Origin: Helicobacteraceae bacterium
GTDB lineage: Bacteria; Campylobacterota; Campylobacteria; Campylobacterales; Sulfurimonadaceae
Assembly (NCBI GenBank): GCA_947498025.1
Contig: CANMJR010000005.1
Coordinates: 1 to 64,000, forward strand
Length of the DNA: 64,000 bases
Direction of reading: 5' to 3'
Shown here: one piece after another, positions 13,369-41,671 of the stretch
How the letters are laid out: the number at the start of each line of letters is the position of its first letter
Numbering within the stretch: the stretch's first letter is position 1
Position numbers and translations under genes: made by a program
The notes under the pieces: generated by a model
What the model was told of the DNA's origin: nothing
The model's database searches: none
Seen by the model: the letters and a program-made list of their open reading frames with translations, nothing else

Positions 13369-13501
13369 GTTGATTTTTGTTTTATGAATGTTTATCTGAT
13401 TTTGTAGCTTTTTTGTAATAAATTAAAAAAAACTGGGACAAAGTGGTGACATTTTATATAATATGTATATAATATTTACAAATAGCAATAGGGGTTTAAT
13501 A

Positions 13502-15139
13502 TTGAAATTGCATACTTATGAAATCGACTCAAAATATAAAACGAGTGTTGCTTACTTTTCTATGGAGTTTGGTATTCATCAGGGCTTGAAAATCTATTCC
13601 GGCGGACTTGGTTTCCTCTCAGGGTCTCATATGCGAAGTGCTTATGATCTGCATCAGAATATAGTCGGTATCGGGATATTATGGAGCTTCGGTTATTACG
13701 ATCAGGGGCGTCAGTCCGATGGCAGTTTGAAAGCTGAATTTATCAGAAAGCACCACTATTTTTTGCAAGACTTGAATATCAAAATAAAAGTTAAAATTCA
13801 CTCTGAAGATGTTTATATAAAAGCGTGGTTGTTGCCGCCTAATATTTTCGGTTCTGCTCCGCTTATTCTGCTCTCTACGGATATTGAAGAAAATAATTTT
13901 TTAGCTCGTACTATTACCCATAAACTTTATGATGCCAATGAAGAAACTCGTATTTCACAGGAGATTGTTCTAGGCATAGGCGGAGTAAAAGTTCTGGATG
14001 CACTGGGACACAAAGTAGATGTTTACCATATGAATGAGGGACATGCTTTGCCGTTGGTGTATGAACTTTATGCACAGTTGAGGGACATGCAAGAGGTGAA
14101 AAAGAGAGTTGTTTTTACAACACATACACCGGAAGATGCGGGCAATGAGAAACACAATATTGATTTGCTCTATAAATTCGGATTTTTTAGTGGCTTATCC
14201 ATGGAAGAGGTGCGTCAAATAACGATGGTGCGCGATGACAGTTTTGGGCTTACGATTGGTGCTTTAAGAGCTGTGAAAATATCAAATGCGGTTTCAAAAT
14301 TTCATGGCGAGGTAGCAAATCGCATGTGGAAAGATTGTGAAGGCAAATCAGAGATTATCTATATCACAAATGCGCAAAATCGCCGTTTTTGGACAGATAG
14401 GGTTATGTTGAATGCCTTTGATGCACATGAAGACTATGAATTAATCTCCAGAAAAAAACATCTAAAAAGAGTTTTGTTTGATGTTGTGGCTGATCAGACC
14501 GGACAGATGTTTGACCCAGAAGTACTTACTATTGTATGGGCTAGGCGCTTTGCAGAGTACAAACGACCTGGACTTTTAAAACAGGATTTTGAGAGATTTA
14601 AGAGCCTGATTACAAGAGTGGATTATCCGGTACAGGTTATTTGGGCGGGTAAGCCTTACCCTTTTGATACGAATGCAATTAATAGTTTTAATGAACTAAT
14701 TGATTTGAGTAGGCAGTTTAATAATATGGCCGTTTTGATTGGATATGAACTCGAACTCTCACGCATGATGAAGAAGGGAAGTGATGTTTGGCTCAACACA
14801 CCAAGGGTTTCAAGAGAGGCGAGCGGTACGAGCGGAATGAGTGCGAGTATGAATGGTTCTGTTCATCTCTCCACGAGTGACGGATGGCATCCTGAGTTTG
14901 CAAAAGATGGCATCAACTCTTTTACAATACCGCCCTCTGGCTCTCTTTCCATAGAGCAGCAGGATTATGAAGATAACAAGAGCTTAATGGATATTTTAGA
15001 AAATAAAATCATTCCGCTCTATTATGATGAACCTAAAAAGTGGATAAAAATAGTGAACAATGCCATGTCAGATGTTATTCCAGCCTTCGATTCCGGACGC
15101 ATGGTGCACGAATATTACACCAAAATGTATGATGTTTAG
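13502..15139 (+). CDS. GT35 alpha-glucan phosphorylase homologue lacking the PLP lysine
   Basis: Protein of 545 residues clearly related to short alpha-glucan phosphorylases (GT35). It has A-Y-F-S-M-E-F-G-I near residue 20, Y-S-G-G-L-G, M-N-E-G-H-A, H-T-P and W-A-R-R-F-A-E-Y-K-R. In active phosphorylases the motif S-G-T-S-G-M-K carries the lysine that binds pyridoxal phosphate; here it reads S-G-T-S-G-M-S, with Ser447 (codon AGT at 14840-14842) in its place. The rest of the motif is intact, so this is not a misalignment. Classical PLP-dependent phosphorolysis of glycogen is therefore doubtful. It may use another mechanism, be a regulatory pseudo-enzyme, or act as a glycosyltransferase. TTG 13502 is chosen because AGGGG lies 8 bases upstream. 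First gene of the operon. Confidence 0.85.
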   Translation: MKLHTYEIDSKYKTSVAYFSMEFGIHQGLKIYSGGLGFLSGSHMRSAYDLHQNIVGIGILWSFGYYDQGRQSDGSLKAEFIRKHHYFLQDLNIKIKVKIHSEDVYIKAWLLPPNIFGSAPLILLSTDIEENNFLARTITHKLYDANEETRISQEIVLGIGGVKVLDALGHKVDVYHMNEGHALPLVYELYAQLRDMQEVKKRVVFTTHTPEDAGNEKHNIDLLYKFGFFSGLSMEEVRQITMVRDDSFGLTIGALRAVKISNAVSKFHGEVANRMWKDCEGKSEIIYITNAQNRRFWTDRVMLNAFDAHEDYELISRKKHLKRVLFDVVADQTGQMFDPEVLTIVWARRFAEYKRPGLLKQDFERFKSLITRVDYPVQVIWAGKPYPFDTNAINSFNELIDLSRQFNNMAVLIGYELELSRMMKKGSDVWLNTPRVSREASGTSGMSASMNGSVHLSTSDGWHPEFAKDGINSFTIPPSGSLSIEQQDYEDNKSLMDILENKIIPLYYDEPKKWIKIVNNAMSDVIPAFDSGRMVHEYYTKMYDV

Positions 15140-15199: not shown

Positions 15200-17707
15200 A
15201 TGAAAGCAGTAATATTAGCAGGTGGGTTTGGTACAAGAATTCAGCCCTTGACAAATTCTCGTCCAAAACCAATGTTGCCAATCATAAATAAGCCGATGAT
15301 GGAACATACTATGATGAAATTAAAGGATTTAGGGATAAGAGAATTTATAATACTCCTCTATTTTAAACCTGAAGTTATAACAGAGTATTTTGGGGATGGA
15401 AAGAAGTTTGGTATTAATATTTCATATATCGTGCCCAAAGATGACTTTGGTACAGCAGGGGCTGTAAAGCTTGCAGAAGAGGCAATTGGAAATGATAATT
15501 TTATAATAATCAGCGGTGACCTTGTAACAGATTTTAATTTTCAGAAGATTTTCCAGTGCCATACTGAGCGACACTCGAAGTTGACAATAACGCTGACATC
15601 CGTAAAAAATCCTCTCCAATTTGGTGTTGTAATTGCGGATGAAGATGGAAAAATAGAGAAATTTTTGGAAAAACCAAGCTGGGGTGAGGTTTTCAGTGAT
15701 ACGATAAATACAGGTATCTATATCTTAGAACCTGATATTTTGGAATATATTCCTAAAAATACAAATTATGATTTTGGAAAAGATTTGTTTCCTCTTTTAA
15801 TGAAAAAGGGTGTCTCTCTTAACGGTTGCAGCGCTTCCGGATATTGGAGAGATGTCGGTAATCCTGAGAGTTATAGAGAAGTGTATGATGATATTTTGAG
15901 CGGCAGAGTTGACTTTGATTTTGGCAATGATGAGAAAATTTTCCCCGATGGCATACTTTATGGCGGCAAAGAGTACGAAGAACTCAACGGTGTTGAAATA
16001 CTCGGAAAAGTGGTCTTAGGAAAAAATGTAACTATCGGAAAATGGGTAAAACTTCATAATGTGGTTATTGGCGACAATAGTGTAATCGGCGACTTCTGTA
16101 AAATAAGAAACACGGTAATATGGGACAATACAACGATAGGAAACGATGTGGCACTCGATAGCTGCGTTATATGTAACAATGCCATTATCGGAAATAACAC
16201 ACAAGCTAAAGCCGGTATGATTTTGGCGGAAGGGTGTGAAATAGGCATGTTAGTATCCATAGATAAAGATATTACAGTCTGGCCTAATAAAGTTATAGAT
16301 AGTGCATCCATCGTCACGAACAATGTAATATGGGGAAGCAAATATAAAAACTCTATCTTTGAAAACGGCAGTGTTTTTGGTATCAGTAATATTGAACTCT
16401 CATGTGAGATGACCACAAAATTGGCAGAAGCATTCGCTTCTCAGCTTCCGATTAACAGTAAAATTTATGTCTCAAGAGATTACCATAAAAGCTCAAGAAT
16501 GCTAAAACGCTCTTTTTTGGGCGGGATATTGGCATCCGGGGTAAATGTAATCGATATTCACTCCCTTCCATCCTCTGTTATGAGATACAACCTAGAGGCG
16601 AACAAAGATGTGGTAGCGGGAGTTCATTTTAGACAACACATGGGCGACCCTGCAAGTGTCAAGATTATATTCTTTAACGAAGATGGTTTGGAGATAAATT
16701 CCTCAATGGCAAAAAATGTTGAAAAGGCATTTTTTAAAGAGGAGTTCAGAAGGGTAAATTATGAGGATATCGGCGAAATTACAGAGACACACAACAATAA
16801 ATATGAGTGTTTATCTTATAAGGAAGCCATAAAGAGCAAAATTAATAAAAATATTTTCACTCAAAGAGAATTTCACATGGTTGTTGACCTCATGTCAGGC
16901 GGCAGTGCGGAAATATTTCCGAAAATATTAAATGACTTAAATATAAACAATATATTACTTAATGCTTATGCAGATGAAAAAAAGCTAAGTCACTTAGATA
17001 GCGTAAAAAAACACTCACAAAGTGAAGTCTCTGCGATTGTGAAAAGCTTAAATTCAGATGTTGGATTTATGATTTATCCAAATGGTGAAAGGTTGGCTGT
17101 TATTACCGACAAAGGTGAAACTTTAGAAAATGAGACGCTTCTTTTTGTAGTTCTCTCTTTGATGAACATGCACAAAGATGAAACCAAACTTAGAGTAATC
17201 CTTCCATCTTGGGCTCCTGATATTATGGACAGCAGTTTTGATAATCTTGAGATTGAGAGAGGAAAATATGTTGATTATAAAGCAACAAAATTAAAAGAGT
17301 ATGATTTAATCGCTACGACCAACGGAGAGTTTGCTTTTACTGAGTTTACTCTGCACCATGATGCTATGTTTTCATCTCTAAAGATTGCAGAAATGCTGAC
17401 GAAGTATGATGTGAAGCTCTCGGATATAGTAAAAGAGATAGAACCGTTTTACTACATGCATTCAAAGCTTCCATGCCCTCAGGCGCTCAAAGGTGTCATG
17501 ATGCGTAAATTTCTTGAAGCTGCCAAATATAAAGAGTCCTCATCTCTTGATGGTGTGAAAATTTGGAATGACAAACATGATTGGGTACTGATGATACCGG
17601 ACCAATATGATGATGCTCTCAACCTTTACACACAGGCAAAAAGTCAAAAAAGAGGGGAAGCTCTTTTGGAAAAATATAAAGCAAAAATAGAAAAATGGGC
17701 AGAATAA
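15200..17707 (+). CDS. NDP-sugar pyrophosphorylase fused to a degenerate phosphohexomutase
   Basis: Protein of 835 residues. Residues 1-235 are a sugar nucleotidyltransferase with the signature L-A-G-G-F-G-T-R and the K-P-M-L-P-I loop, making an NDP-sugar from a sugar-1-phosphate. About 250-370 is a left-handed beta-helix of hexapeptide repeats (V-V-I-G-D-N type). About 385-835 is laid out like phosphomannomutase/phosphoglucomutase. However, the phosphoserine loop (normally T-A-S-H-N-P) reads V-H-F-R-Q-H-M-G-D-P, the metal loop (D-G-D-G-D-R) reads Y-P-N-G-E-R, and the sugar loop is unlike G-E-x-S-G. The mutase half is probably inactive. Similar long fusions are annotated as mannose-1-phosphate guanylyltransferases in cyanobacteria and others; here the operon suggests a glucose-1-phosphate substrate (inference). 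GAGGAG precedes the ATG. Confidence 0.85.
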   Translation: MKAVILAGGFGTRIQPLTNSRPKPMLPIINKPMMEHTMMKLKDLGIREFIILLYFKPEVITEYFGDGKKFGINISYIVPKDDFGTAGAVKLAEEAIGNDNFIIISGDLVTDFNFQKIFQCHTERHSKLTITLTSVKNPLQFGVVIADEDGKIEKFLEKPSWGEVFSDTINTGIYILEPDILEYIPKNTNYDFGKDLFPLLMKKGVSLNGCSASGYWRDVGNPESYREVYDDILSGRVDFDFGNDEKIFPDGILYGGKEYEELNGVEILGKVVLGKNVTIGKWVKLHNVVIGDNSVIGDFCKIRNTVIWDNTTIGNDVALDSCVICNNAIIGNNTQAKAGMILAEGCEIGMLVSIDKDITVWPNKVIDSASIVTNNVIWGSKYKNSIFENGSVFGISNIELSCEMTTKLAEAFASQLPINSKIYVSRDYHKSSRMLKRSFLGGILASGVNVIDIHSLPSSVMRYNLEANKDVVAGVHFRQHMGDPASVKIIFFNEDGLEINSSMAKNVEKAFFKEEFRRVNYEDIGEITETHNNKYECLSYKEAIKSKINKNIFTQREFHMVVDLMSGGSAEIFPKILNDLNINNILLNAYADEKKLSHLDSVKKHSQSEVSAIVKSLNSDVGFMIYPNGERLAVITDKGETLENETLLFVVLSLMNMHKDETKLRVILPSWAPDIMDSSFDNLEIERGKYVDYKATKLKEYDLIATTNGEFAFTEFTLHHDAMFSSLKIAEMLTKYDVKLSDIVKEIEPFYYMHSKLPCPQALKGVMMRKFLEAAKYKESSSLDGVKIWNDKHDWVLMIPDQYDDALNLYTQAKSQKRGEALLEKYKAKIEKWAE

Positions 17708-17711
17708 TTCG

Positions 17712-19739
17712 ATGAGTAAAACAATGAAACTCTCCTTTTTATGGCACATGCACCAGCCTGATTACAGAGATGATGAGGGTGTTATGAAAATGCCGTGGGT
17801 TTTTTTGCATGCTATTAAAGATTATTACGATATGCCTTGGATACTCAGTACATTTCCAAATTTAAAGGCAACATTTAACCTCACTCCTTCGTTAATCGAG
17901 CAGTTAAAGCTTTATTCTGAACCTCTGAAGTATGACTATTTTTTGCAACTTTGGAGCAAACATCCATCGGAGCTCTCTTTTACACAAAAAGAGTGGGTGA
18001 TAAAAATCTGTAAATCCCCAAATTATGAGACTATGATTAAGCCGATGCCACGATACGGTGAACTCTATACTCTTGAAACATTCAGCGAAGAGAAGTTTTT
18101 GGATTTACAAATGCAGTTTATGTTGGCATGGTGTGGAAATTATCTTCGCCAAAACAGTGAAGTCGTAAAGAACATGTTGCAAAAAGGAGGTGGCTACTCG
18201 ATGCAAGATAAATCACTCCTGCTTGAGACCCTGACTGCTTTTGTAAGTGAGATTCTTCCGTTTTACAAATCTTTGTTACAAAAAGGGAGGATTGCAATTG
18301 CAACAACACCCTATTTTCACCCCATATTACCGCTTTTAATAGATATGGAGAATGTTCAAAAAGCAAATATCCATACCAAGCCTCCAAGCAATAAGTTCTC
18401 CTTTAAATCAGATGCAATCACACATGTAAAAAGAGCAATAGCCCTCTATAAAGAGACTTTTGATACAGACCCGATTGGTTTCTGGCCGGCTGAGGGAGCG
18501 GTTGATACTGAGAGTGTAAAGATTTATAAAGAAGAGGGAATAAAATGGATTGCAACAGATGAGACAATCCTTTTCAAGACATTAGAGGACAAATCAAGAG
18601 AAAACCTCTATAAACTCTACAGTTATGATGATGTTTGTATCGCCTTTCGTGACCACACCATAAGTGATTTATTTGGATTCGATTATAGATTTAAGCCATC
18701 AAGCGAAGCTGTTGAACACTTTATTAACACAATCGAACCGATAGCATGGAGTGATGAAGATAAGACACTCTTTATCATTTTAGACGGGGAGAATGCGTGG
18801 GAGTATTATCCGCAAAACGGCTATCCGTTTTTTATACAGCTCTATGAAAAACTCTCCAATCTTTCTTGGTGCCGGAGTGTTACCATGGACGAACTGTTGA
18901 GCGATAAAGCAGTTTCACTCAGCACGCTCGCTACGGGGAGTTGGATAGGGGGAGATTTTTCTACATGGAGTGGAAATGCAGAAAAAAATCGTGCTTGGGA
19001 GTTACTCTTTCAAACCCGCAGAGATGCAGACAATTACAGCCATGTGATAGATGAGAAGAGTGCAAAATTGATAGAAAATCACTTTTTGTCCGCTCAGTGC
19101 AGCGACTGGTTTTGGTGGTACGGCGATGACCACTTTACAGAATTCAGTATGGAATTTGACTCTCTTTTTAGAAAACATCTCATCAATATTTATAAACTTT
19201 TAAATATGCAGCCGCCGGCTGATTTGTTTGAGCCTATTAAAGAGCATAAGAGCACCGCTTCATTTATGGTGAAGCCTCAAGCACCGATATATCCGAAGAT
19301 TGATGGAAAATTGTCATCCTTTTTTGAGTGGATTGGCTGTGGTTTTATTGATGAAAGTCGTCTTTTTTCTACCATGGATAGGGCAAGAGGTCCAATTCAG
19401 ACAATACGATATGGGCATAACGAGAGTACGGTTTACATCTCATTTTATGGAGATATTGAGCAGCTTAAAGGTGAAAAAAGCACTTTGGAGCTTATTATTG
19501 AAGAGCTATCGGAATCAATCATTTTAGAGCTAAATAAAAATGAGCAACCTTTTGGTATCACTATTGGATTAGGAAGTAGTTTTGAAATTGCTATTCCAAA
19601 AACCGTCTTTGCCAAAATGCAAAAAGTTCATCTGCGGTTTGAGATTACGCAAGATAAAAAGATTATCCAAACTTTACCGGGGTTTGGGGCCTTAAAAGTA
19701 CAATTGAATGAAGATTACAGCTCGAGCTGGTTTGTTTAG
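17712..19739 (+). CDS. GH57 alpha-glucan-acting glycoside hydrolase/transferase (first)
   Basis: Protein of 675 residues opening with L-S-F-L-W-H-M-H-Q-P, the first conserved GH57 region. The likely nucleophile is Glu261 in W-P-A-E-G-A-V and the acid/base is Asp358 in L-D-G-E-N-A-W-E. The family includes alpha-amylases, amylopullulanases and related enzymes; this subgroup often sits beside glycogen genes in bacteria lacking GH13 debranching enzymes, so a debranching or trimming role is plausible but not shown. No signal peptide, so it is cytoplasmic. It begins 5 bases after the previous stop, suggesting translational coupling. Confidence 0.85.
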   Translation: MSKTMKLSFLWHMHQPDYRDDEGVMKMPWVFLHAIKDYYDMPWILSTFPNLKATFNLTPSLIEQLKLYSEPLKYDYFLQLWSKHPSELSFTQKEWVIKICKSPNYETMIKPMPRYGELYTLETFSEEKFLDLQMQFMLAWCGNYLRQNSEVVKNMLQKGGGYSMQDKSLLLETLTAFVSEILPFYKSLLQKGRIAIATTPYFHPILPLLIDMENVQKANIHTKPPSNKFSFKSDAITHVKRAIALYKETFDTDPIGFWPAEGAVDTESVKIYKEEGIKWIATDETILFKTLEDKSRENLYKLYSYDDVCIAFRDHTISDLFGFDYRFKPSSEAVEHFINTIEPIAWSDEDKTLFIILDGENAWEYYPQNGYPFFIQLYEKLSNLSWCRSVTMDELLSDKAVSLSTLATGSWIGGDFSTWSGNAEKNRAWELLFQTRRDADNYSHVIDEKSAKLIENHFLSAQCSDWFWWYGDDHFTEFSMEFDSLFRKHLINIYKLLNMQPPADLFEPIKEHKSTASFMVKPQAPIYPKIDGKLSSFFEWIGCGFIDESRLFSTMDRARGPIQTIRYGHNESTVYISFYGDIEQLKGEKSTLELIIEELSESIILELNKNEQPFGITIGLGSSFEIAIPKTVFAKMQKVHLRFEITQDKKIIQTLPGFGALKVQLNEDYSSSWFV

Positions 19740-19748
19740 GAAATGATT

Positions 19749-21800
19749 ATGGAAAATAAAACGACACTGTTATTCGGTATTCATATGCACCAACCTGTTG
19801 ATAATTTCAAAGAGGTAATTACACATGCTGTTGATGTCTGTTATGCACCCTTTTTTGAGGTTGTAAGTCGCTATAGCGAGTTTAAGTTTTCGGTTCATTG
19901 CAGCGGTTGGCTTATGCAGCAGATACAAAATGACCATCCAAAACTTTTTAAAACTATAGTAGAACTCTCACAAAAAGGGAGCATTGAGTTTTTTGGTGCC
20001 GGTTATTATGAGCCGATTCTGAGCGTTATCCCCTCGAGGGATCGCGTAGCACAGATAAATAAATTAAGCAAAGATATAGAAGATAAGTTTGACCAAAAAC
20101 CAAAAGGGCTTTGGCTGACTGAAAGAGTATGGGAATCTTCACTTATTCCGGACCTTAGTTCGGCAAATATTGAATATACGGTTATAGATGATTACCATTT
20201 TCAATCTGCAGGATTTGATGAGGAGATACTGGATGGTTATTACATCACAGAAGAGAGCGGAAAAAGTATCGGTATCTTTCCAATCAGCAAAAAGTTGCGT
20301 TATGCACTCCCTTTTGTAAGTGTTGAGAGCGCCATAGAAGTTATAAAATCCTATAAGCGGGAGAGCGATTCGGCAGCCATAATATTTGATGATGCAGAGA
20401 AGTTCGGCATGTGGCCTGGAACCTACAGCTGGGTCTATGAAAAGGGTTGGTTGGAGAAATTTATACAAGCCCTTCTCAAAGATGAGAATATCATTTGTGA
20501 ACATTACGGCGCATACATGCAAAAGCATAAACCAAGAGGAATTGCCTATCTGCCGAATGTCTCCTATTATGAGATGGGTGAGTGGAGCCTCAGAGCGGAT
20601 GATGCACTGAAACTTGAAGCCTTCAAAAGTGAGATGGGCGAAGAGCAGTATAACAAGAGTGGAGTGAAATTCTTAAAAGGCGGAATTTGGAAAAACTTTT
20701 TTGTCAAATATGAGGAGAGTAACCGCATCCATAAACGGATGTTGGAACTCTCAAATGTAAGAGAAGAAGTTAACGATAAAGAGTATGACGAGTATCTTTA
20801 TAAACTTCAAACAAACGATGCTCTCTGGCATGGAGTCTTCGGCGGACTCTATCTTCCAAACCTTCGCGATAACGCATACAGCTACTTAATCGCCTGCGAG
20901 ACTCTCCGGTATGGAGATAAAACTCTCATAATTACGGATGAGAGTGAAATGGACGGCTATACAAAAGTGAAAGCTGTTTCACCAAAATATATCTTTCGTT
21001 TTGACACTAAAGTAGGCGGGCAACTCGTTGAGTTTGACAGCAAACAAGAGTGCTTTAATTGGCAAAATACACTCACTAGACGAAAAGAAGCATACCATGA
21101 AAAAATACTCAACAAAGCATCTCAAACAGAAGATATAAAAAGTGAAAACGCTTCGGATGGAATTGATACAATTCACAACATTGCACACCGTGTGGATGAA
21201 GAGGTCACTGATGCTTTAGTTTATGACTGGTACTTGAAAAACTCATTTATAGACCATATCAGTGATAAATCAATATCACTTGATAGTTTTCGTCACTGTA
21301 CTTTTAGAGAGTACGGAGATTTTGTAAATCAACCGTTTACGCAAAAAATAGAGGCAGATACAATTGTATTTGAGAGAGAGGGTGGAATTTATCTCCCTCA
21401 AAAACATTCGGCATCTCTTAAAAAAAGTTATACACAGACGGCATCCGGATTTCAGTTTGCAATTGATTTTCAAACTGATTTTGACTATTTTTTTAACTAT
21501 GTTTTGGAGCTGAATTTTCATTTTGCCCAGTACGGCAAAGTCACAATTAACGGTGATAGCATCAGCATAGGCACTAAAAAAGAGAGAATAAAACTAATAG
21601 AGATTGAGGATGGATATTTGAGAAAAAAAATTACCGTAAGAGTTGATAGTCAGGTTGATATTTTATATTATCCACTCAAAAGTGTATCTCAAAGCGAGCA
21701 GGGGTATGAGTTAACAACGCAGTGTCTAAGTATTGCTCTGGTTCTTCCCTACTCAAAAAACTTTCTTTTAGAGGGTTCTTTAGAGGTGTCAGATGTCTGA
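19749..21800 (+). CDS. GH57 4-alpha-glucanotransferase/alpha-amylase with DUF1925/DUF1926-type C-terminal domains
   Basis: Protein of 683 residues. The N-terminal GH57 barrel begins F-G-I-H-M-H-Q-P. The nucleophile is probably Glu125 in W-L-T-E-R-V-W-E, and the acid/base lies in the D-D-A-E-K-F-G-M-W-P-G-T motif at 214 onward. Spacing agrees well with the archaeal 4-alpha-glucanotransferases of Pyrococcus/Thermococcus. The C-terminal half is beta-rich, as in those enzymes. Predicted to transfer or shorten maltodextrin chains during polyglucan turnover. ATG 19749 is preferred over ATG 19743 since AGGA lies 7 bases before it. It overlaps the next gene by 8 bases. Confidence 0.87.
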   Translation: MENKTTLLFGIHMHQPVDNFKEVITHAVDVCYAPFFEVVSRYSEFKFSVHCSGWLMQQIQNDHPKLFKTIVELSQKGSIEFFGAGYYEPILSVIPSRDRVAQINKLSKDIEDKFDQKPKGLWLTERVWESSLIPDLSSANIEYTVIDDYHFQSAGFDEEILDGYYITEESGKSIGIFPISKKLRYALPFVSVESAIEVIKSYKRESDSAAIIFDDAEKFGMWPGTYSWVYEKGWLEKFIQALLKDENIICEHYGAYMQKHKPRGIAYLPNVSYYEMGEWSLRADDALKLEAFKSEMGEEQYNKSGVKFLKGGIWKNFFVKYEESNRIHKRMLELSNVREEVNDKEYDEYLYKLQTNDALWHGVFGGLYLPNLRDNAYSYLIACETLRYGDKTLIITDESEMDGYTKVKAVSPKYIFRFDTKVGGQLVEFDSKQECFNWQNTLTRRKEAYHEKILNKASQTEDIKSENASDGIDTIHNIAHRVDEEVTDALVYDWYLKNSFIDHISDKSISLDSFRHCTFREYGDFVNQPFTQKIEADTIVFEREGGIYLPQKHSASLKKSYTQTASGFQFAIDFQTDFDYFFNYVLELNFHFAQYGKVTINGDSISIGTKKERIKLIEIEDGYLRKKITVRVDSQVDILYYPLKSVSQSEQGYELTTQCLSIALVLPYSKNFLLEGSLEVSDV

Positions 21801-22827
21801 AATCCGTTATAACAGATTAGAAGATAGTTATGTCATTATCGCTCCGGAGCGGCTTCATCGACCCGATTATATGGCATGGAGCAGGGGGGATGAAAACAGA
21901 CTCCCTTGCCCTTTTTGTGAGGGAAATGAAGCAGTAACACCGCCGGAAATTTATGCAATTCGTGATAATGGAAGTTTTGCGGATGAAAAGGGGTGGCATA
22001 CTCGGGTAATTCCAAATCTCTTTAAGGCAGTACAAATCGAAGCACCCTATATTTTAAAGCATGAGGGTGCAAATAAGGTTTGGGATGGGTTTGGTGCACA
22101 TGAGATTGTAGTTGATTCGCCAAAACATTTGATGAGCATGTCAGAATGGTCACAAACAACCTATTTTAACTGGCTTAAAACAATTCAGACAAGAGTGAGA
22201 GATTTAAGAAATGATTTGAGAATAGCACATATCTCGATTTTTAAAAATCATGGGGTTTCAGCAGGGGCATCTCAGTCCCATCCACATACGCAACTCATTG
22301 GACTTCCTATCATTCCAAAAAATATACAACGTAAATATGAGAGAATTTATAGCCATTATATGAACAGCGGACGCCTGCTTATCGACGATATAATAGAAGA
22401 AGAGAGAAAAGACGGCAGACGAATTGTCATAGAGAGTGATTCGTTTATTGCTTTTTGTCCCTTTGCCAGTGAACACCCTTTTGAGGTGATGGTTACAAGC
22501 AGCACACTTCCCTCCGAGATAGATAAAATTGAGAATTTAAAACTAGAAGAGCTGTCAAAACTTTTACATGAACTTTTTATGCGTCTGGAAGTGCAACTTG
22601 GAAATTTTGATTTTAACATCTCTATCTCTATCGCACCGATGCATAAGCCTTTTACAACAGATATAAATTTTAGCAATATAAATCCAACATGCAGATTCAG
22701 TATCCGCATAACACCTCGCATCTACAGACATGGAGGTTTTGAACTCTTAACCTCGACTATGATAAATCCGGTAGAACCGGAGCGATGCGCACAACTTTTA
22801 AGAGAATCTAAGGAGGGAATAGTATGA
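21793..22827 (+). CDS. galT: Galactose-1-phosphate uridylyltransferase-like enzyme
   Basis: Protein of 344 residues of the HIT-superfamily GalT family. Residues 40-45 hold C-P-F-C, half of the structural zinc site. The catalytic motif is S-H-P-H-T-Q, in which the second His forms the uridylyl intermediate; H-P-F-E and N-x-S-I follow. The family exchanges UDP between glucose-1-P and galactose-1-P, but relatives phosphorolyse UDP- or ADP-glucose. In a polyglucan operon a UDP/ADP-glucose phosphorylase role feeding glycogen synthase is at least as likely (inference). It overlaps the gene before by 8 bases and the gene after by 4. Confidence 0.82.
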   Translation: MSEIRYNRLEDSYVIIAPERLHRPDYMAWSRGDENRLPCPFCEGNEAVTPPEIYAIRDNGSFADEKGWHTRVIPNLFKAVQIEAPYILKHEGANKVWDGFGAHEIVVDSPKHLMSMSEWSQTTYFNWLKTIQTRVRDLRNDLRIAHISIFKNHGVSAGASQSHPHTQLIGLPIIPKNIQRKYERIYSHYMNSGRLLIDDIIEEERKDGRRIVIESDSFIAFCPFASEHPFEVMVTSSTLPSEIDKIENLKLEELSKLLHELFMRLEVQLGNFDFNISISIAPMHKPFTTDINFSNINPTCRFSIRITPRIYRHGGFELLTSTMINPVEPERCAQLLRESKEGIV

Positions 22828-24269
22828 GTAAAGTTAAAAAACAGGCAAAAGTTCTTTTTGTATCAAGCGAGGTGTACCCTTTTGCAAAGAGTGGCGGTTT
22901 GGCAGATGTTTCGTTTGGATTGCCGAAAGCGATGTCAGATTTGTTTGATATATCGATTATCATGCCTCTCTACGGCTCTATCGATAAAAAGCGATTTAAG
23001 ATACGACAAGTAGAACAATTTGATATTTATCTTGGTAAAAAAAAGTATGCAGTTGAACTTTTTACCACTTCGCATGAGGGTATAAAGTGCTACTTTATAG
23101 AGTCCAATATTTTGTCAAATAAAAAGAATCTTTATGGAACGCCGCAAAACGGATATAAGGACAACGACCTTCGTTTTGGGCTTTTTTGTAAGGCTGTTGT
23201 AGCTTTTGTCAAACAAAAAAACAGTTATGATTTGCTCCATCTCAATGATTGGCAGAGTGCCTTATGTGCGACTTTTGTCAAAGAAGATGAAGCTATCAGA
23301 GCAAAAACACTTTTTACGATACATAACCTCTCTTATCAAGGTATTTTTGAAAAATCAACGCTCGAAAAACTTGGAATTTCAGAGAACTATTTTCATATGG
23401 ATGCGTTAGAGTTTCATGGAAATATTAACTTTATGAAAGCGGGTATTGCCCATGCAGACGCTATTACAACGGTGAGTCCAAATTATGCCAACGAAATTAT
23501 TGCCCCAGAGTTCGGGTGCGGACTTGAGGGCTTTTTGCAAAAACATCAAAACAAGTTCACCGGTATCCTAAACGGGATTGATTTATCACATTTTTCGCCG
23601 AGTACCGATAAAGCACTTGTGCAAAACTACGATGCTAAAAGCTATGATAAAAAAGCAGAAAATAAAAAAGCCTTTCTCAAAGAGAGAGGTTTAGAAAATA
23701 GTGCGCTTCCTCTTTTTGTTTTTATAGGTCGTTTTACATGGCAAAAAGGTGTAGATTTACTTATTGATGCTTTAGGGCAACTGGATGATTTAAAGCTTAA
23801 CATCGCCGTTTTAGGGGAGGGTGAAGCTTCGTACCATAAGCAGATGAAAGCCGTCACTGCAAAAAGCAAAAATATCAATATAGAGTTTGGTTACGATGAG
23901 TCACTCTCACACAAAATGTATGCTTCTGCTGATTTTCTTCTTATGCCCTCACTCTTCGAGCCATGCGGGTTGAACCAGCTTATCTCCATGAGCTACGGGA
24001 CTCTTCCTATTGTGAGCAGTGTCGGCGGATTAAAAGACAGTGTGTATCCTATTGATGAATATGATTCAGCGCTCACGCATGGATTTGGACTGACTTTTGA
24101 AGCGAACGAACCGAATGCACTTATAAAAACTATACAATCGGCTCTGGAGTTATATGAGGATAAAAAGCGTTTAAAAGAGATAAATATTCATAATATGGGA
24201 TGTGATTTCTCTTGGAATGAGAGTGGCAAAATTTATGCTGCACTTTACAGCTCCCTTGTAGAGCGATGA
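22824..24269 (+). CDS. glgA: Glycogen synthase (GT5), first paralogue
   Basis: GT-B fold glycosyltransferase of 481 residues that extends alpha-1,4-glucan chains from ADP- or UDP-glucose. The N-terminal K-S-G-G-L-A-D-V loop (the K-x-G-G-L motif) binds the nucleotide sugar, H-N-L-S-Y-Q-G lies near residue 170, and the C-terminal S-L-F-E-P-C-G-L-N-Q motif holds the catalytic Glu region. Length is typical of bacterial GlgA. Start and stop overlap both neighbours by 4 bases, with a good GGAGG before the ATG. A second GlgA lies two genes downstream. Confidence 0.92.
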   Translation: MSKVKKQAKVLFVSSEVYPFAKSGGLADVSFGLPKAMSDLFDISIIMPLYGSIDKKRFKIRQVEQFDIYLGKKKYAVELFTTSHEGIKCYFIESNILSNKKNLYGTPQNGYKDNDLRFGLFCKAVVAFVKQKNSYDLLHLNDWQSALCATFVKEDEAIRAKTLFTIHNLSYQGIFEKSTLEKLGISENYFHMDALEFHGNINFMKAGIAHADAITTVSPNYANEIIAPEFGCGLEGFLQKHQNKFTGILNGIDLSHFSPSTDKALVQNYDAKSYDKKAENKKAFLKERGLENSALPLFVFIGRFTWQKGVDLLIDALGQLDDLKLNIAVLGEGEASYHKQMKAVTAKSKNINIEFGYDESLSHKMYASADFLLMPSLFEPCGLNQLISMSYGTLPIVSSVGGLKDSVYPIDEYDSALTHGFGLTFEANEPNALIKTIQSALELYEDKKRLKEINIHNMGCDFSWNESGKIYAALYSSLVER

Positions 24270-25105
24270 AACTTTTTATAGATATCGGCGGCACGCATCT
24301 GCGAAGTGAACTTCAGATGCCCGGCGGAGTAATAAGTGAAAATGTCTCCTCGCAGGAGTATGACCTTGTCTCCTTTATAGAAAAAAAACTGGAGTTGTAT
24401 CCTTTTATCACTTTTATCGGTATCTCCTACGCAGGGCAAATCTACAAAGGCGAGATTTTATCCGCCCCAAATATTGCACTCAAAGAGCCAAGGATTAAGG
24501 AGTATTTTGAATCAAGATACGATTTACGCCTAGAGATTGATAACGATTTAAACTGTGCCGCTATGGCAGAGTCGGCGTATTTTAAATCTGATTCACTCCT
24601 AGCTTTATATGTAGGTACCGGAATCGGCAGTGCTTTTATAGATAACGGTCGATTGGTTCGAGGCTCAAAAAATATGGCGTTTGAGATAGGGCATATTCCC
24701 TACAAGCAAACTCCTTTTGTTTGCGGATGCAAAAAAACAAACTGTCTTGAGCTTTACGCCTCGGCTTCGGGTTTAGAGAAGCGAATGAAACACTTTAACA
24801 TGCCGATACTCTCGTTTGCGGAGCTTGAAAATTCGCAAGATGAACAAAAAAGTGCTCTAGCTTTGGATTTTAAAGAAGCACTTTTGTTCGCAACCGCTAC
24901 GCTAATAACGCTCACAAATCCGAGAATTGTTGTTTTTGGAGGCGGAGTAATTGAACATAATCCGCAAATTTTAGAGTATCTGAAAAAAAATCTTGAGGGT
25001 CAAGCTTTTTCCGGTTCTCTGCATGGAGTGAGTCTTCACATCTCCTCTTTAGAAAACGGTGCAATGAGCGGAGCAAAACTTTTGGAGGAAAATAGTTATG
25101 AATAA
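24266..25105 (+). CDS. ROK-family sugar kinase (probable glucokinase)
   Basis: Protein of 279 residues. It begins D-I-G-G-T-H-L-R (phosphate-1 motif), has the catalytic Asp in I-D-N-D-L-N, the G-T-G-I-G-S adenosine loop, G-H-I-P, and the ROK zinc cysteines C-G-C-K-K-T-N-C. ROK kinases phosphorylate glucose, mannose, fructose or N-acetyl sugars; between two glycogen synthases, glucokinase is most likely, recovering free glucose released by the GH57 enzymes. A ROK repressor is excluded because no DNA-binding N-terminus is present. It overlaps glgA by 4 and the next gene by 8 bases. Confidence 0.85.
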   Translation: MKLFIDIGGTHLRSELQMPGGVISENVSSQEYDLVSFIEKKLELYPFITFIGISYAGQIYKGEILSAPNIALKEPRIKEYFESRYDLRLEIDNDLNCAAMAESAYFKSDSLLALYVGTGIGSAFIDNGRLVRGSKNMAFEIGHIPYKQTPFVCGCKKTNCLELYASASGLEKRMKHFNMPILSFAELENSQDEQKSALALDFKEALLFATATLITLTNPRIVVFGGGVIEHNPQILEYLKKNLEGQAFSGSLHGVSLHISSLENGAMSGAKLLEENSYE

Positions 25106-26564
25106 ACTTAAAATTTTTATAGTGGCGTCAGAGGTCGTCCCATTTGCAAAAACGGGCGGACTGGCGGATGTTGCAGGTGCACTGCCAAAAGCTTTGGCGG
25201 CACTCGGTCATGATGTGCGTGTTGTCATGCCACGCTATTATGTAGTTGATAAAAGCAAGTTTAAAGCACTTGATGGCGCTTTGGGCGTAGATATGGGGCG
25301 AGACGGAGAGGCTTGGGGTCTGGTTTTAGAGGGGGTGTTGCCAAACACCGAGATTCCGGTCTATTTTATTGAACACGAGGGGTACTTTGGTCGAAGCGGG
25401 CTTTATGATGCCGGAGACAACGGATATGAAGACAATCCCCAGAGATTCATATTTTTCTCAAAAGCTGCTCTGCAACTCTGTAAAAAACTTCACTTTGGGC
25501 CAGATATTATCCATGTAAATGATTGGCACACAGCCATTATCCCGCTGCTTTTAAATGTAATGCAAGATTCGTACTTTCAAAACACCGCTTCGATTCTGAC
25601 TATACATAATCTTCAACATCAAGGAAGATTTACTAAAGATGTGATGGAGATTTTAGGCATAGGCTGGGGAAATTTCAACACATATGAGCTGGAGGACTTT
25701 GACGGGGTAAACCTCTTAAAGGCGGGGATTGTCCATGCGGATGCCATTACAACGGTCAGCCCGAAATATTCGCAGGAGATTAGAGGTTTCGCCTATGACT
25801 GGGGGCTTAAAGATGTTTTAAATGCACATGCTTATAAACTCCATGGCATTTTAAATGGCGTGGATTATGAGGAGTGGAGTCCAAAGAGCGACCACTACAT
25901 AGCAAAAAAATATACGGCTAAAAGTTTATCAGGTAAAAAAGTTTGCAAAGCAGAGCTTCAAAAAATCTTTAATCTTCCGGTGCGAGCGGATGTTCCTCTT
26001 TTTGGTTTTGTGGGGCGACTGGCAGAGCAAAAGGGAGTAACACTCATAGCGAGCGAAATTTGGAATCTGCTTGAGATGGATATTCAAATCGTCTTGCTAG
26101 GTGCGGGGGAGAGATGGGCGGAAAGCTTTTTTAGCCATGTATCGGATGTTCAAAGAGAAAAGTTCGGCTGTTATATCGGGTACAGAAATGATTTAGCGCA
26201 CCAGATAGAGGCAGGATGTGACTTCTTTTTAATGCCATCCCTCTTTGAACCATGCGGATTAAACCAAATCTACTCACTCAGCTACGGAACTCTGCCGATT
26301 GTAAGAGCGACAGGCGGACTGGATGATACGATTGAAAACTTCAATCCACATGCCAACACCGGAACGGGATTTAAGTTTTATGATGCAACTCCGAAGGCGT
26401 TTTATAACACTGTTGTTTGGGCGGTGGACACTTGGTATAACAATAAAGATGCGATTAAAGCGTTAATTAAAAACGGCATGAAAAAGCATTTTGGCTGGGA
26501 TGATACTGCTAAAGTTTACGAGAGTGTGTATAATGAGGCACTGCAACAAAAGCGTCAAAAATAA
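25098..26564 (+). CDS. glgA: Glycogen synthase (GT5), second paralogue
   Basis: Protein of 488 residues with the same signatures as the first GlgA: K-T-G-G-L-A-D-V-A-G near residue 20, H-N-L-Q-H-Q-G, and S-L-F-E-P-C-G-L-N-Q. It reads as a more canonical GlgA (A-K-T-G-G-L-A-D-V-A-G-A-L-P) than the first. The two are clearly diverged, so this is not a recent tandem duplication. Paralogous synthases often split chain elongation from priming or differ in nucleotide-sugar preference (inference). GGAGG precedes its ATG, inside the end of the kinase gene. Confidence 0.92.
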   Translation: MNKLKIFIVASEVVPFAKTGGLADVAGALPKALAALGHDVRVVMPRYYVVDKSKFKALDGALGVDMGRDGEAWGLVLEGVLPNTEIPVYFIEHEGYFGRSGLYDAGDNGYEDNPQRFIFFSKAALQLCKKLHFGPDIIHVNDWHTAIIPLLLNVMQDSYFQNTASILTIHNLQHQGRFTKDVMEILGIGWGNFNTYELEDFDGVNLLKAGIVHADAITTVSPKYSQEIRGFAYDWGLKDVLNAHAYKLHGILNGVDYEEWSPKSDHYIAKKYTAKSLSGKKVCKAELQKIFNLPVRADVPLFGFVGRLAEQKGVTLIASEIWNLLEMDIQIVLLGAGERWAESFFSHVSDVQREKFGCYIGYRNDLAHQIEAGCDFFLMPSLFEPCGLNQIYSLSYGTLPIVRATGGLDDTIENFNPHANTGTGFKFYDATPKAFYNTVVWAVDTWYNNKDAIKALIKNGMKKHFGWDDTAKVYESVYNEALQQKRQK

Positions 26565-26575
26565 AGGCTTAATCC

Positions 26576-28510
26576 ATGAACTATGCAATACATTACGATG
26601 TGACACTTTTTAGCGGTTATGATATTCACCTTTTTTTAAATGGAAATCATGCAAAGCTTTATGATAAATTAGGTTCTCACTTTATGAATAGAGAGGGCAA
26701 AACGGGCGTTTACTTCAGCGTATGGGCGCCAAATGCCGGAAGTGTTTCGGTGCGTGGAGATTTTAACAACTATGTGTTAGATGCCCATCCGCTCAAAAAG
26801 AGAGAGGATGACTCCGGTATTTGGGAGTGTTTCATTGAAGATGTGGCGAACGGGGTGACTTACAAATATCACATCATCTCAAACTTTTATAACATTGTCC
26901 ATGAAAAGAGTGACCCCTTCTCCTTTTCCTCAGAGATAGCGCCAAAATCAGCTTCGCGTGTATGGGATATAGAGAATTATGAGTGGAGTGACAAAGAGTG
27001 GATGAGTGAGCGATACAAACATAACGCACATAACGCTCCGATAAATATCTATGAAGTTCATCTCGGTTCATGGAGAAGAAAAGCGGATGAGAATAACCGC
27101 TATTTGACCTACATGGAGGTGGCGGATGAGCTTGTGCCGTATTTGGTGCAGATGAACTACACCCATGTTGAATTTATGCCTTTGAGCGAATATCCTTATG
27201 ACGGCTCTTGGGGGTATCAGGTTGTGGGTTATTTCGCCGCAACCTCTCGTTTTGGAACACCGCAGGAGTTAATGTATCTCATAAATGCTCTGCATCAAAA
27301 CGGTATCGGTGTCATTATGGACTGGGTTCCATCACACTTTGCGGTGGACATGCATGGGCTCATCAACTTTGACGGAAGTGCTTTGTATGAACATGCAAAC
27401 CCAAAACAGGGATTTCACCCTGAGTGGGGAAGCATCATCTTTAACTATGGGCGAAACGAGGTCAGAGCATTTTTGATAAGCTCTGCCATGTTTTGGCTTG
27501 ATAAATACCATATCGATGGCATAAGAGTGGACGGTGTGGCTTCCATGCTTCATCTTGATTATGCAAGAGAAGAGGGCGAGTGGATTGCGAATCAACATGG
27601 CGGCAATGAAAATCTTGAAGCAGTCCAGTTTTTGCAGCAGCTTAACCACACAACTTACGGCACATTTCCCGATACCGTAATGATGGCGGAAGAGTCAACT
27701 GCCTGGCCGATGGTTACCCGCCCGACCGATGTCGGAGGTTTAGGTTTTGGTTTTAAGTGGAATATGGGATGGATGCACGACTCTCTAAAATATTTCAGTT
27801 ATGACCCGATTTATAGAGAGCACCACCATCAGCAACTCACATTTAGCATGTGGTACGCTTATGATGAGAATTTTTTGCTCCCCCTCAGCCATGATGAAGT
27901 TGTCCACATGAAAGGCTCCCTTATCAACAAAATGCCCGGAACACTCGAAGATAAATTCTCAAATTTAAGAGCTCTGTACGCTTACATGATAGCCCATCCC
28001 GGGAAAAAACTTCTTTTTATGGGTGGTGAAATCGCTCAATTTGCAGAGTGGAATTATGAGCAGAGTCTTGATTGGCACTTGTTAGAATATCCGCTTCATA
28101 AAAAACTAAACTACATGGTTTCTGACCTCAATGCCCTCTATAAAAAAGAGAAAGCCCTTCACATGCATGATGAAAAAAGAGATGGTTTTGAGTGGATAAA
28201 TGACGCGGATTATCAGCATAACTGCATAAGTTTTATCCGTAAAAGTGATGATGCAGACGAGACTATTTTGGTAGTGTGTAACTTCTCAAATCAAGAACTC
28301 AGCCATTACCGTGTAGGCGTTCCGGATATTGGACAATACAGAGAGATTTTTAACTCGCAATCGGGCTACTATGAAGGGTATAACATAGGAAACACAGGGG
28401 TTTTAAACTCGGAAGATATCTCAGTGGATACAAGAAGATACTCTATCTCCATAACCATGCCGCCGGTCGGCGTTCTCTATTTTAAAAGAGTAATTCAATT
28501 AGAAATATAA
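26576..28510 (+). CDS. glgB: 1,4-alpha-glucan branching enzyme
   Basis: GH13 enzyme of 644 residues that moves glucan segments to alpha-1,6 branch points. An N-terminal CBM48 beta-sandwich (about 25-130, V-Y-F-S-V-W-A-P-N-A) precedes the barrel. Catalytic Asp319 is in G-I-R-V-D-G-V-A and Glu372 in M-A-E-E-S-T; the transition-state pair is in P-L-S-H-D-E-V-V-H. The C-terminal beta domain ends the protein. It lacks the extra N-terminal module of E. coli GlgB. It is the last gene of the operon, starting 11 bases after glgA. No clear terminator separates it from the opposing flhB-like gene 13 bases on. Confidence 0.94.
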   Translation: MNYAIHYDVTLFSGYDIHLFLNGNHAKLYDKLGSHFMNREGKTGVYFSVWAPNAGSVSVRGDFNNYVLDAHPLKKREDDSGIWECFIEDVANGVTYKYHIISNFYNIVHEKSDPFSFSSEIAPKSASRVWDIENYEWSDKEWMSERYKHNAHNAPINIYEVHLGSWRRKADENNRYLTYMEVADELVPYLVQMNYTHVEFMPLSEYPYDGSWGYQVVGYFAATSRFGTPQELMYLINALHQNGIGVIMDWVPSHFAVDMHGLINFDGSALYEHANPKQGFHPEWGSIIFNYGRNEVRAFLISSAMFWLDKYHIDGIRVDGVASMLHLDYAREEGEWIANQHGGNENLEAVQFLQQLNHTTYGTFPDTVMMAEESTAWPMVTRPTDVGGLGFGFKWNMGWMHDSLKYFSYDPIYREHHHQQLTFSMWYAYDENFLLPLSHDEVVHMKGSLINKMPGTLEDKFSNLRALYAYMIAHPGKKLLFMGGEIAQFAEWNYEQSLDWHLLEYPLHKKLNYMVSDLNALYKKEKALHMHDEKRDGFEWINDADYQHNCISFIRKSDDADETILVVCNFSNQELSHYRVGVPDIGQYREIFNSQSGYYEGYNIGNTGVLNSEDISVDTRRYSISITMPPVGVLYFKRVIQLEI

Positions 28511-40117: not shown

Positions 40118-41638
40118 TTAATTAACTCTTATAACTTCTACTAGATCTTTATAGCTACTCATATTAACTTTATCTGAATCCAGATGTCTATATTCACAGT
40201 AGAGATTATTTGTTTTTAACATGTTTATATCATTTATGGTATCAATATCGATATCTTTATGAACAGTATTTAAAATAACAAAATCATCACCAAAGATACG
40301 AAAAATTTTAGAATTTATAAATTCTGATTGTAAATATGTGGCAAAGTCACTTAAAAAAACATCTCCTTCATTCCATCCATGTAGTTTATTGTAGGGTGTA
40401 AAGTTTTTTAGGAAAATAATATTTAAGCATACAAATTCATTTTCATTTTTACTTTTATGTAATACAAAATCAAGATAAACATGATTATAAAGATGTGTTA
40501 ATGAATCTTTAAAAAAATATGCAAAACGCTCATCATCTATATTAGAGATAGGTTCTTGATTTATCTGTTCATCAATATGAACTGATTTTAAAACACCGAT
40601 AGCTGCATCTACCACTTGCGAATCATAGAGAGTATTACTAAATTTATTCAGTTCTTCAAGCGCTTGAGGGATAGTTTTTCTTGCTTTATATATTCTGCTG
40701 GTTGTCATAGCATCAAATGAATCAGCAACCATCATTATGCGTGCAAATATTGGAATCTTATTACCCTTTAGGCTGCTTGGATACCCACTTCCGTCATACC
40801 TTTCATGATGAGCATATACAATATCAGCAATATCTTTATACATTGGAATGCGTGAAAGTATTTTAAATCCCGCAAGAGCGTGATCTTGAATTAATACATA
40901 TTCATCTTGTGTTAACTTTCCCGGTTTTAACAGTATTGAATCAGGAGTAATTATTTTTCCGATATCATGTAATATTCCTGCCTGATATATCAAATCGCAC
41001 TCTTCTTGGGAAAACCCCATAGCTTTTGCTATATCTCTTGAATATGTTGCGACCCTTTCACTATGCCCTCCCGTATATGTATCTCTATCCTCAATCATTT
41101 CCACCAATGAGCGTATTACATCTTTATGGTTTTCAAGCATGTCATTTTCTAGCTGCAGAACAGTTTGGGTTCTCTCATCAACCATCTCTTCAAGCTTTGT
41201 TTTATACATCTCATTTTCACGAAACGCTGTTAATTTATTAATAGATTGTTCTAGTACATTTAATATTTGAGTAAATTTAACCGGTTTAATTATATATCCG
41301 GTTACATTGAGCTCTATTGCCTGTGTTAAATAAGTAGAATCGGTATAAGCAGACACTACTATTATCTCTTGAACTTTACTCTTTTCTCTAATCTTGTGTA
41401 TAAATTCTATACCATCCATTTTTGGCATAAGAATATCTGTTATAACAATATCGTATGGCTTGTCAAGATATTTTTTTAATCCTTCTGCACCATCAGCGGC
41501 TGTGTCAACTTGATTGAATAGTTTACTTAAAAAACTAGATACTTTATCCCGTAATATTTGCTCATCTTCGACATACAATACAGAAAAATGAGAGGCCATT
41601 TTTTTTATATTTTCTGAAATCATTTTTGGCATTTCCAT
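40118..41638 (-). CDS. REC-HD-GYP response regulator with a degenerate GGDEF tail
   Basis: Protein of 506 residues. An intact receiver (V-L-Y-V-E-D-E; phosphoacceptor in T-D-I-L-M-P) is followed by a coiled linker and an HD-GYP phosphodiesterase domain with H-S-E-R-V-A, L-H-D-I-G-K and H-E-R-Y-D-G-S-G-Y-P, which should hydrolyse c-di-GMP. The last 140 residues look like a GGDEF fold (D-S-L-T-H-L-Y-N), but the signature reads F-G-D-D-F, so it is probably a non-catalytic or GTP-sensing domain. ATG 41638 has AGGAG 9 bases upstream; the longer TTG frame starts right at that site and is rejected. It follows the large kinase gene, its likely partner. Confidence 0.9.
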   Translation of the reverse strand: MEMPKMISENIKKMASHFSVLYVEDEQILRDKVSSFLSKLFNQVDTAADGAEGLKKYLDKPYDIVITDILMPKMDGIEFIHKIREKSKVQEIIVVSAYTDSTYLTQAIELNVTGYIIKPVKFTQILNVLEQSINKLTAFRENEMYKTKLEEMVDERTQTVLQLENDMLENHKDVIRSLVEMIEDRDTYTGGHSERVATYSRDIAKAMGFSQEECDLIYQAGILHDIGKIITPDSILLKPGKLTQDEYVLIQDHALAGFKILSRIPMYKDIADIVYAHHERYDGSGYPSSLKGNKIPIFARIMMVADSFDAMTTSRIYKARKTIPQALEELNKFSNTLYDSQVVDAAIGVLKSVHIDEQINQEPISNIDDERFAYFFKDSLTHLYNHVYLDFVLHKSKNENEFVCLNIIFLKNFTPYNKLHGWNEGDVFLSDFATYLQSEFINSKIFRIFGDDFVILNTVHKDIDIDTINDINMLKTNNLYCEYRHLDSDKVNMSSYKDLVEVIRVN

Positions 41639-41671
41639 GTTATACAACTCCTAAAATTTAATATACTTTTG

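Follow-up and report, generated by a model that had tools for sequence, protein, structure and literature searches.

A short homologue of the GT35 alpha-glucan phosphorylases, encoded in the window (the whole 64,000-nucleotide stretch of DNA analysed), has serine in place of the lysine that binds pyridoxal phosphate (PLP), and belongs to a conserved clade in Campylobacterota and Bacteroidota from which this lysine is absent. Cells carrying such proteins probably handle glycogen by chemistry new to the GT35 family, and the window protein, judging by sequence, is quite possibly an alpha-1,4-glucan phosphorylase that needs no covalent attachment of PLP. Reviews describe GT35 as uniquely PLP-requiring and as composed exclusively of phosphorylases (PMC4336185, PMC8950772); a conserved natural lysine-less subfamily is at odds with a PLP requirement throughout the sequence family, and in it the gain or loss of PLP by a GT-B transferase could be studied in a natural system. 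No description of a lysine-less GT35 clade was found in the openly licensed literature, and an earlier account elsewhere is possible. Since the genes are currently annotated glgP, 'alpha-glucan family phosphorylase', a putative reaction may have entered the metabolic models built for Sulfurimonas-type autotrophs and many Bacteroidota.

Serine at the cofactor-lysine position

The gene and its active-site features are arranged as follows, with residue numbers referring to the window protein.

13502–15139, forward strand: short GT35/TIGR02094 homologue of the lysine-less clade (545 aa; TIGR02094, PF00343, Ser/Thr/Ala clade)
13601–13612, forward strand: GGLG glycine-rich loop (G34–G37), retained and at least 95% conserved in members with and without the lysine
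14390–14392, forward strand: Trp297, invariant in 92/92 sequences
14543–14563, forward strand: phosphate-binding motif R348-R349-x4-K354 (RX4K), retained, with R349 and K354 invariant in 92/92
14741–14749, forward strand: G414-Y415-E416, clade-specific Gly and Glu around a conserved Tyr (alignment counts)
14816–14818, forward strand: Glu439, the conserved Glu of E-A-S-G-T, retained and invariant in 92/92
14840–14842, forward strand: AGT codon of Ser447, at the PLP-lysine position (codon reading and alignment to 9l6i)

The 545-residue translation contains WLNTPRVSREASGTSGMSASMNGSVHLSTSDGW, and its motif reads R-E-A-S-G-T-S-G-M-S-A-S-M-N-G. In the alignment with 9l6i, a solved PLP phosphorylase from Segatella copri, Ser447 stands opposite the lysine of EASGTSGEKAEMNG; translation and alignment thus bear out the original prediction that serine (AGT) replaces the PLP lysine. 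The window protein matches TIGR02094 with 458 bits (cut-off 191.7) and PF00343 with 50 bits, which places it in GT35, and scores 33 bits against the GlgA model TIGR02095 (cut-off 328), which leaves it outside the GT5 glycogen synthases. It lacks the Schiff-base lysine expected of a PLP-dependent alpha-glucan phosphorylase (EC 2.4.1.1) and has the other catalytic residues of such an enzyme (glycine loop, R/K site, EASGT Glu, Trp/Tyr). Translation more probably starts from the TTG at 13502, as most close orthologues begin at a homologous MKLH...; an alternative in-frame ATG lies upstream at 13463.

The prediction that the remaining active-site motifs are intact also stands. Among 92 aligned sequences (70 from the clade and 22 with the lysine), R349, K354, E439, G442, T443, H176, H208, N290 and W297 are invariant and Y415 is present in 91. 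The RX4K motif of the window protein reads R349-F-A-E-Y-K354, and Trp297 is by alignment the putative equivalent of the PLP-contacting Trp of muscle phosphorylase. The residues flanking Y415 differ between the groups: position 414 is Gly in 66/70 clade members and Asn or Asp in 21/22 lysine-bearing members, and position 416 is Glu in 70/70 of the clade and never in the others.

Sequencing error or gene decay has a negligible chance and is ruled out by the AGT codon in three independent assemblies (L008, L009 and L010), dN/dS values of 0.031–0.036 between the window gene and these orthologues (computed over the first 474 codons), an intact frame and clade-wide conservation. The host genome (2.93 Mb, 99.8% complete) hides no canonical phosphorylase by PF00343 and TIGR02094, which match only the window gene and one paralogue (C2:86854–88446) located between gap and pgk and 64% identical to the window protein. 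The absence of another phosphorylase from the window was thus correctly noted, and the search of the genome for a second, canonical one that had been proposed yields only this paralogue, which likewise lacks the lysine (GTSGMSAAMNG). A substitute lysine near the motif was also considered and rejected, the nearest one downstream (K469) being variable among members. Lys424, a further candidate, is invariant in the lysine-less clade, and lysine-bearing members have a hydrophobic residue or Thr at this position.

Phylogeny and sequence of the lysine-less clade

Homologues were gathered from the window's family, its phylum (Campylobacterota), Bacteroidota and two Bacteroidota plasmids. Among 125 distinct homologues with a readable position, 25 have the lysine; in the other 100 the residue is Thr (69), Ser (30) or Ala (1). 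Lysine occurs in 0/100 clade members and in 25/25 sequences outside the clade, so the serine of the window protein is not a chance change. The question of whether orthologues share the loss of the lysine is answered for all 100 clade members, and the change, originally presented as a trait of one protein, is subfamily-wide: the clade rule is Thr or Ser with one Ala, accompanied by about 45 further clade-specific substitutions. The sole Ala member (L183, G656:C1) reads GTSGMAASMNG, indicating that a hydroxyl is not strictly required. TIGR02094 was matched by 33/33 clade members.

Lysine-less members are monophyletic in a tree built with the lysine column masked (SH-aLRT 100; stem length 1.45 changes per column). 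Closest to them among lysine-bearing sequences is a 575-residue Bacteroidota protein (L098), although the exact join is unsure because both branches are long. A single loss of lysine is the simplest reading of the sequences, as all other branches sampled, like the classical phosphorylases, have the residue. Of the roughly 45 other positions at which the clade is uniform and lysine-bearing members differ from it, many fall within conserved C-terminal-domain motifs; the set includes V345-W346 (G-F in lysine-bearing members), P385-Y386 (A-H), G414 (N/D), E416, F466 (G/A) and S42 (D).

Clade members are about 550 residues long, and lysine-bearing ones range from 569 to 878, mostly about 700. Two short lysine-bearing GT35 proteins (L106 and L107; 614 and 569 aa) are encoded on one Bacteroidota contig (G355:C64:19236–20918 and 40832–42511), so short length alone does not imply loss of the lysine. 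Lysine-less GT35 genes (reading GMT at the motif) are also found on the Bacteroidota plasmids NZ_CP021236.1 (L196, Pontibacter) and NZ_CP030856.1 (L195, Runella); in Pontibacter a gene for a type II glyceraldehyde-3-phosphate dehydrogenase lies two genes upstream.

Genomic context and co-occurrence with glycogen synthases

Domain matches of the downstream genes confirm that the window gene is the first of a polyglucan operon, which continues as follows.

15200–17707, forward strand: nucleotidyltransferase fused to a phosphoglucomutase/phosphomannomutase-like domain, the next gene (PF00483, PF02878, PF02879)
17712–19739, forward strand: GH57 enzyme (PF03065)
19743–21800, forward strand: GH57 alpha-amylase/4-alpha-glucanotransferase (PF03065, PF09094, PF09095)
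21793–22827, forward strand: GalT-family nucleotidyltransferase (PF01087)
22824–24269, forward strand: first glycogen synthase GlgA (GT5; TIGR02095, 523 bits)
24266–25105, forward strand: ROK sugar kinase (PF00480)
25098–26564, forward strand: second glycogen synthase GlgA (GT5; TIGR02095, 530 bits)
26576–28510, forward strand: GH13 branching enzyme-like protein (PF02922, PF00128, PF02806; the name GlgB is inferred from domain order)

No canonical GlgC is seen in this operon. In the phosphohexomutase-like part of the fusion at 15200–17707, Pfam matches domains I and II only.

Relatives have arrangements of the form gap-pgi-GT35-pgk-pfk-NTP/PGM-GH57-GH57-galT-glgA, and in four of them (L158, L160–L162) a lysine-bearing GT35 gene is present instead, just upstream of the same operon. 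Among 200 genomes of the window's family, GT35 of either type occurs in 95, GlgA in 97 and both in 88 (Fisher p = 5e-37), and most genomes with only one of the two are incomplete. Outside this family the lysine-less protein is the sole GT35 in 69/79 carrier genomes checked. Campylobacterota carriers of other families all have GlgA (36/36); the lysine-less protein is their only GT35 in 26/36 and is joined by a lysine-type GT35 in 10/36. In three genomes of one such family (f8; G612, G626 and G633, L179–L181) both types are encoded in one glycogen operon. This coexistence implies that the two are not fully redundant and have divided roles.

No other GT35 is present in any of the 43 Bacteroidota carriers, 36 of which were read at the lysine position and the remainder assigned on an identity of 51% or more. 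A full GT5 is found in 27 of them, a divergent GT5 in 1, GT3 in 10, and neither in full in 5. Genomes with a lysine-less GT35 thus almost always encode a glycogen synthase as well, of family GT5 or GT3, and because some Bacteroidota carriers use GT3 rather than GT5, the constant partner has the look of a breakdown enzyme. A half-length GlgA homologue covering the N-terminal half of the model (frames of about 270–316 aa) occurs in ten Bacteroidota genomes (G203, G256, G283, G318, G353, G393, G397, G401, G574 and G590), most of which also have GT3, the exceptions being G283, G318 and G401.

Fold and candidate reactions

An AlphaFold2 model computed with the clade alignment (pLDDT 86, pTM 0.88) has as its best solved-structure match the S. 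copri glycogen phosphorylase 9l6i (Z 30.8, 526 residues, 30% identity), followed by E. coli glycogen synthase with ADP, 3cop (Z 29.4, 440 residues, 16% identity). The predicted structure confirms a GT-B fold, and the structure matches do not discriminate the donor. The S. copri enzyme belongs to the TIGR02094 'alpha-glucan family phosphorylase' branch, which includes the maltodextrin phosphorylase of Thermococcales. With this branch the window protein shares the fold, the GGLG loop, R-R-x4-K and E-A-S-G-T; the clade differs from it in having Ser, Thr or Ala at the lysine position, in its length (about 550 residues compared with roughly 700–850) without an N-terminal extension, and at the approximately 45 clade-specific positions. 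With GT5 GlgA (3cop) the window protein has in common the GT-B fold, the presumed absence of PLP, an R...K phosphate site and an equivalent of E439, and G414-Y415-E416 resembles the G-Y-D of GlgA, although identity is only about 16% and the TIGR02095 score the 33 bits given above. In GlgA this Tyr stacks on adenine, and by alignment the G-Y of the window protein would correspond to the putative base-binding loop. GlgA-profile scores are also slightly raised (clade mean 19.6 bits compared with 6.0 for lysine-bearing members), and together with the G-Y-E loop this is no more than a hint of a nucleotide site; profile-profile comparison, made with one GlgA sequence only, gave an uninformative probability below 1%.

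Phosphorolysis without covalent PLP remains the reading we favour. Inorganic phosphate would bind at R349-x4-K354, and the bound phosphate would protonate the glycosidic oxygen and attack C1 from the same face (a front-side, SNi-like route), as in the retaining GT4 trehalose phosphorylase. The glucose 1-phosphate released would pass through phosphoglucomutase, phosphoglucose isomerase and phosphofructokinase, genes for which lie in the same operons in relatives. Water, a second phosphate or bulkier side chains might fill the site vacated by PLP. The GT4 enzyme of Schizophyllum commune presumably functions without PLP. It is a retaining GT-B phosphorylase with the RX4K motif (PMC12018205), a front-side mechanism with phosphate as proton donor has been described for GT4 and GT35 (PMC8950772), and among phosphorylases only GT35 needs PLP (PMC4336185). 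The likeness is one of working and not of membership, since the GT4 enzyme is of another family, acts on a disaccharide and is compared here by its published description. A role in breakdown is suggested by this precedent, the retained RX4K and Glu, the glycolytic operons and the occurrence of the protein as sole GT35 in company with a glycogen synthase of either family. Against phosphorolysis stand the essential acid/base role of the PLP phosphate in characterised GT35 enzymes (PMC4336185, PMC11046441), the lysine-type GT35 in 10/36 other Campylobacterota carriers, the clade-specific G-Y-E with its GlgA-profile shift, and the five Bacteroidota carriers lacking a full GT5 or GT3.

The main rival reading, which we regard as rather unlikely, is that the protein is a glucosyltransferase using ADP- or UDP-glucose. 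The nucleoside monophosphate part of the donor would occupy the vacated PLP site, and the enzyme would elongate glucan or, in reverse, release NDP-glucose; a PLP phosphorylase would thereby have gone back to the kind of donor ancestral to GT-B enzymes. A 2024 review (PMC11046441) proposes that, in a proto-GT35 enzyme acting on NDP-sugars, PLP took over from a nucleoside monophosphate. The clade would then have undone in nature the step by which glycogen phosphorylase is proposed to have arisen, and GT35 would not be purely phosphorylases. The predicted model fits 3cop nearly as well as 9l6i, G-Y-E convergence and the profile shift point the same way, a lysine-type GT35 coexists in some operons, the adjoining gene encodes a sugar nucleotidyltransferase, and five Bacteroidota carriers have no recognised full GT5 or GT3 synthase. 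Such an enzyme would, however, be redundant with GlgA in 36/36 other-family Campylobacterota and in most Bacteroidota carriers, most carriers would be left with no glucan phosphorylase, and the nucleotidyltransferase gene also sits beside lysine-type GT35.

A phosphorylase holding a phosphate-bearing cofactor non-covalently (PLP, PMP or a nucleotide, with no Schiff base) is improbable. In classical phosphorylase the chemistry is done by the PLP phosphate and not by the aldimine (PMC11046441), as phosphate-analogue work on pyridoxal-reconstituted enzyme, cited in PMC12018205, also indicates. R348, R349, K354, T443, Y415 and W297 are kept, and a pyridoxamine 5'-phosphate oxidase family gene adjoins the Runella plasmid copy, although it is a neighbour in that one case only. 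Against this reading, many other changes cluster in conserved C-terminal-domain motifs (W346, P385-Y386, G414, E416, F466) and suggest that the pocket has been remodelled.

The original prediction had offered three readings: glycogen breakdown by a different route, a reaction independent of PLP, and a role in regulation. The fixed cross-phylum loss, the essentially invariant active site, dN/dS near 0.03 and the usual absence of a canonical GT35 favour the PLP-independent reaction and make a purely regulatory role less likely. We give slight credence to a pseudoenzyme that binds glycogen or acts as a regulator: the essential cofactor-binding residue is gone and some 45 further positions have changed. 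Yet E439, R349, K354, H176, H208, N290 and the GGLG loop are virtually unchanged in both phyla, where a loss of catalysis should have let some of them drift, and most carriers have no other GT35.
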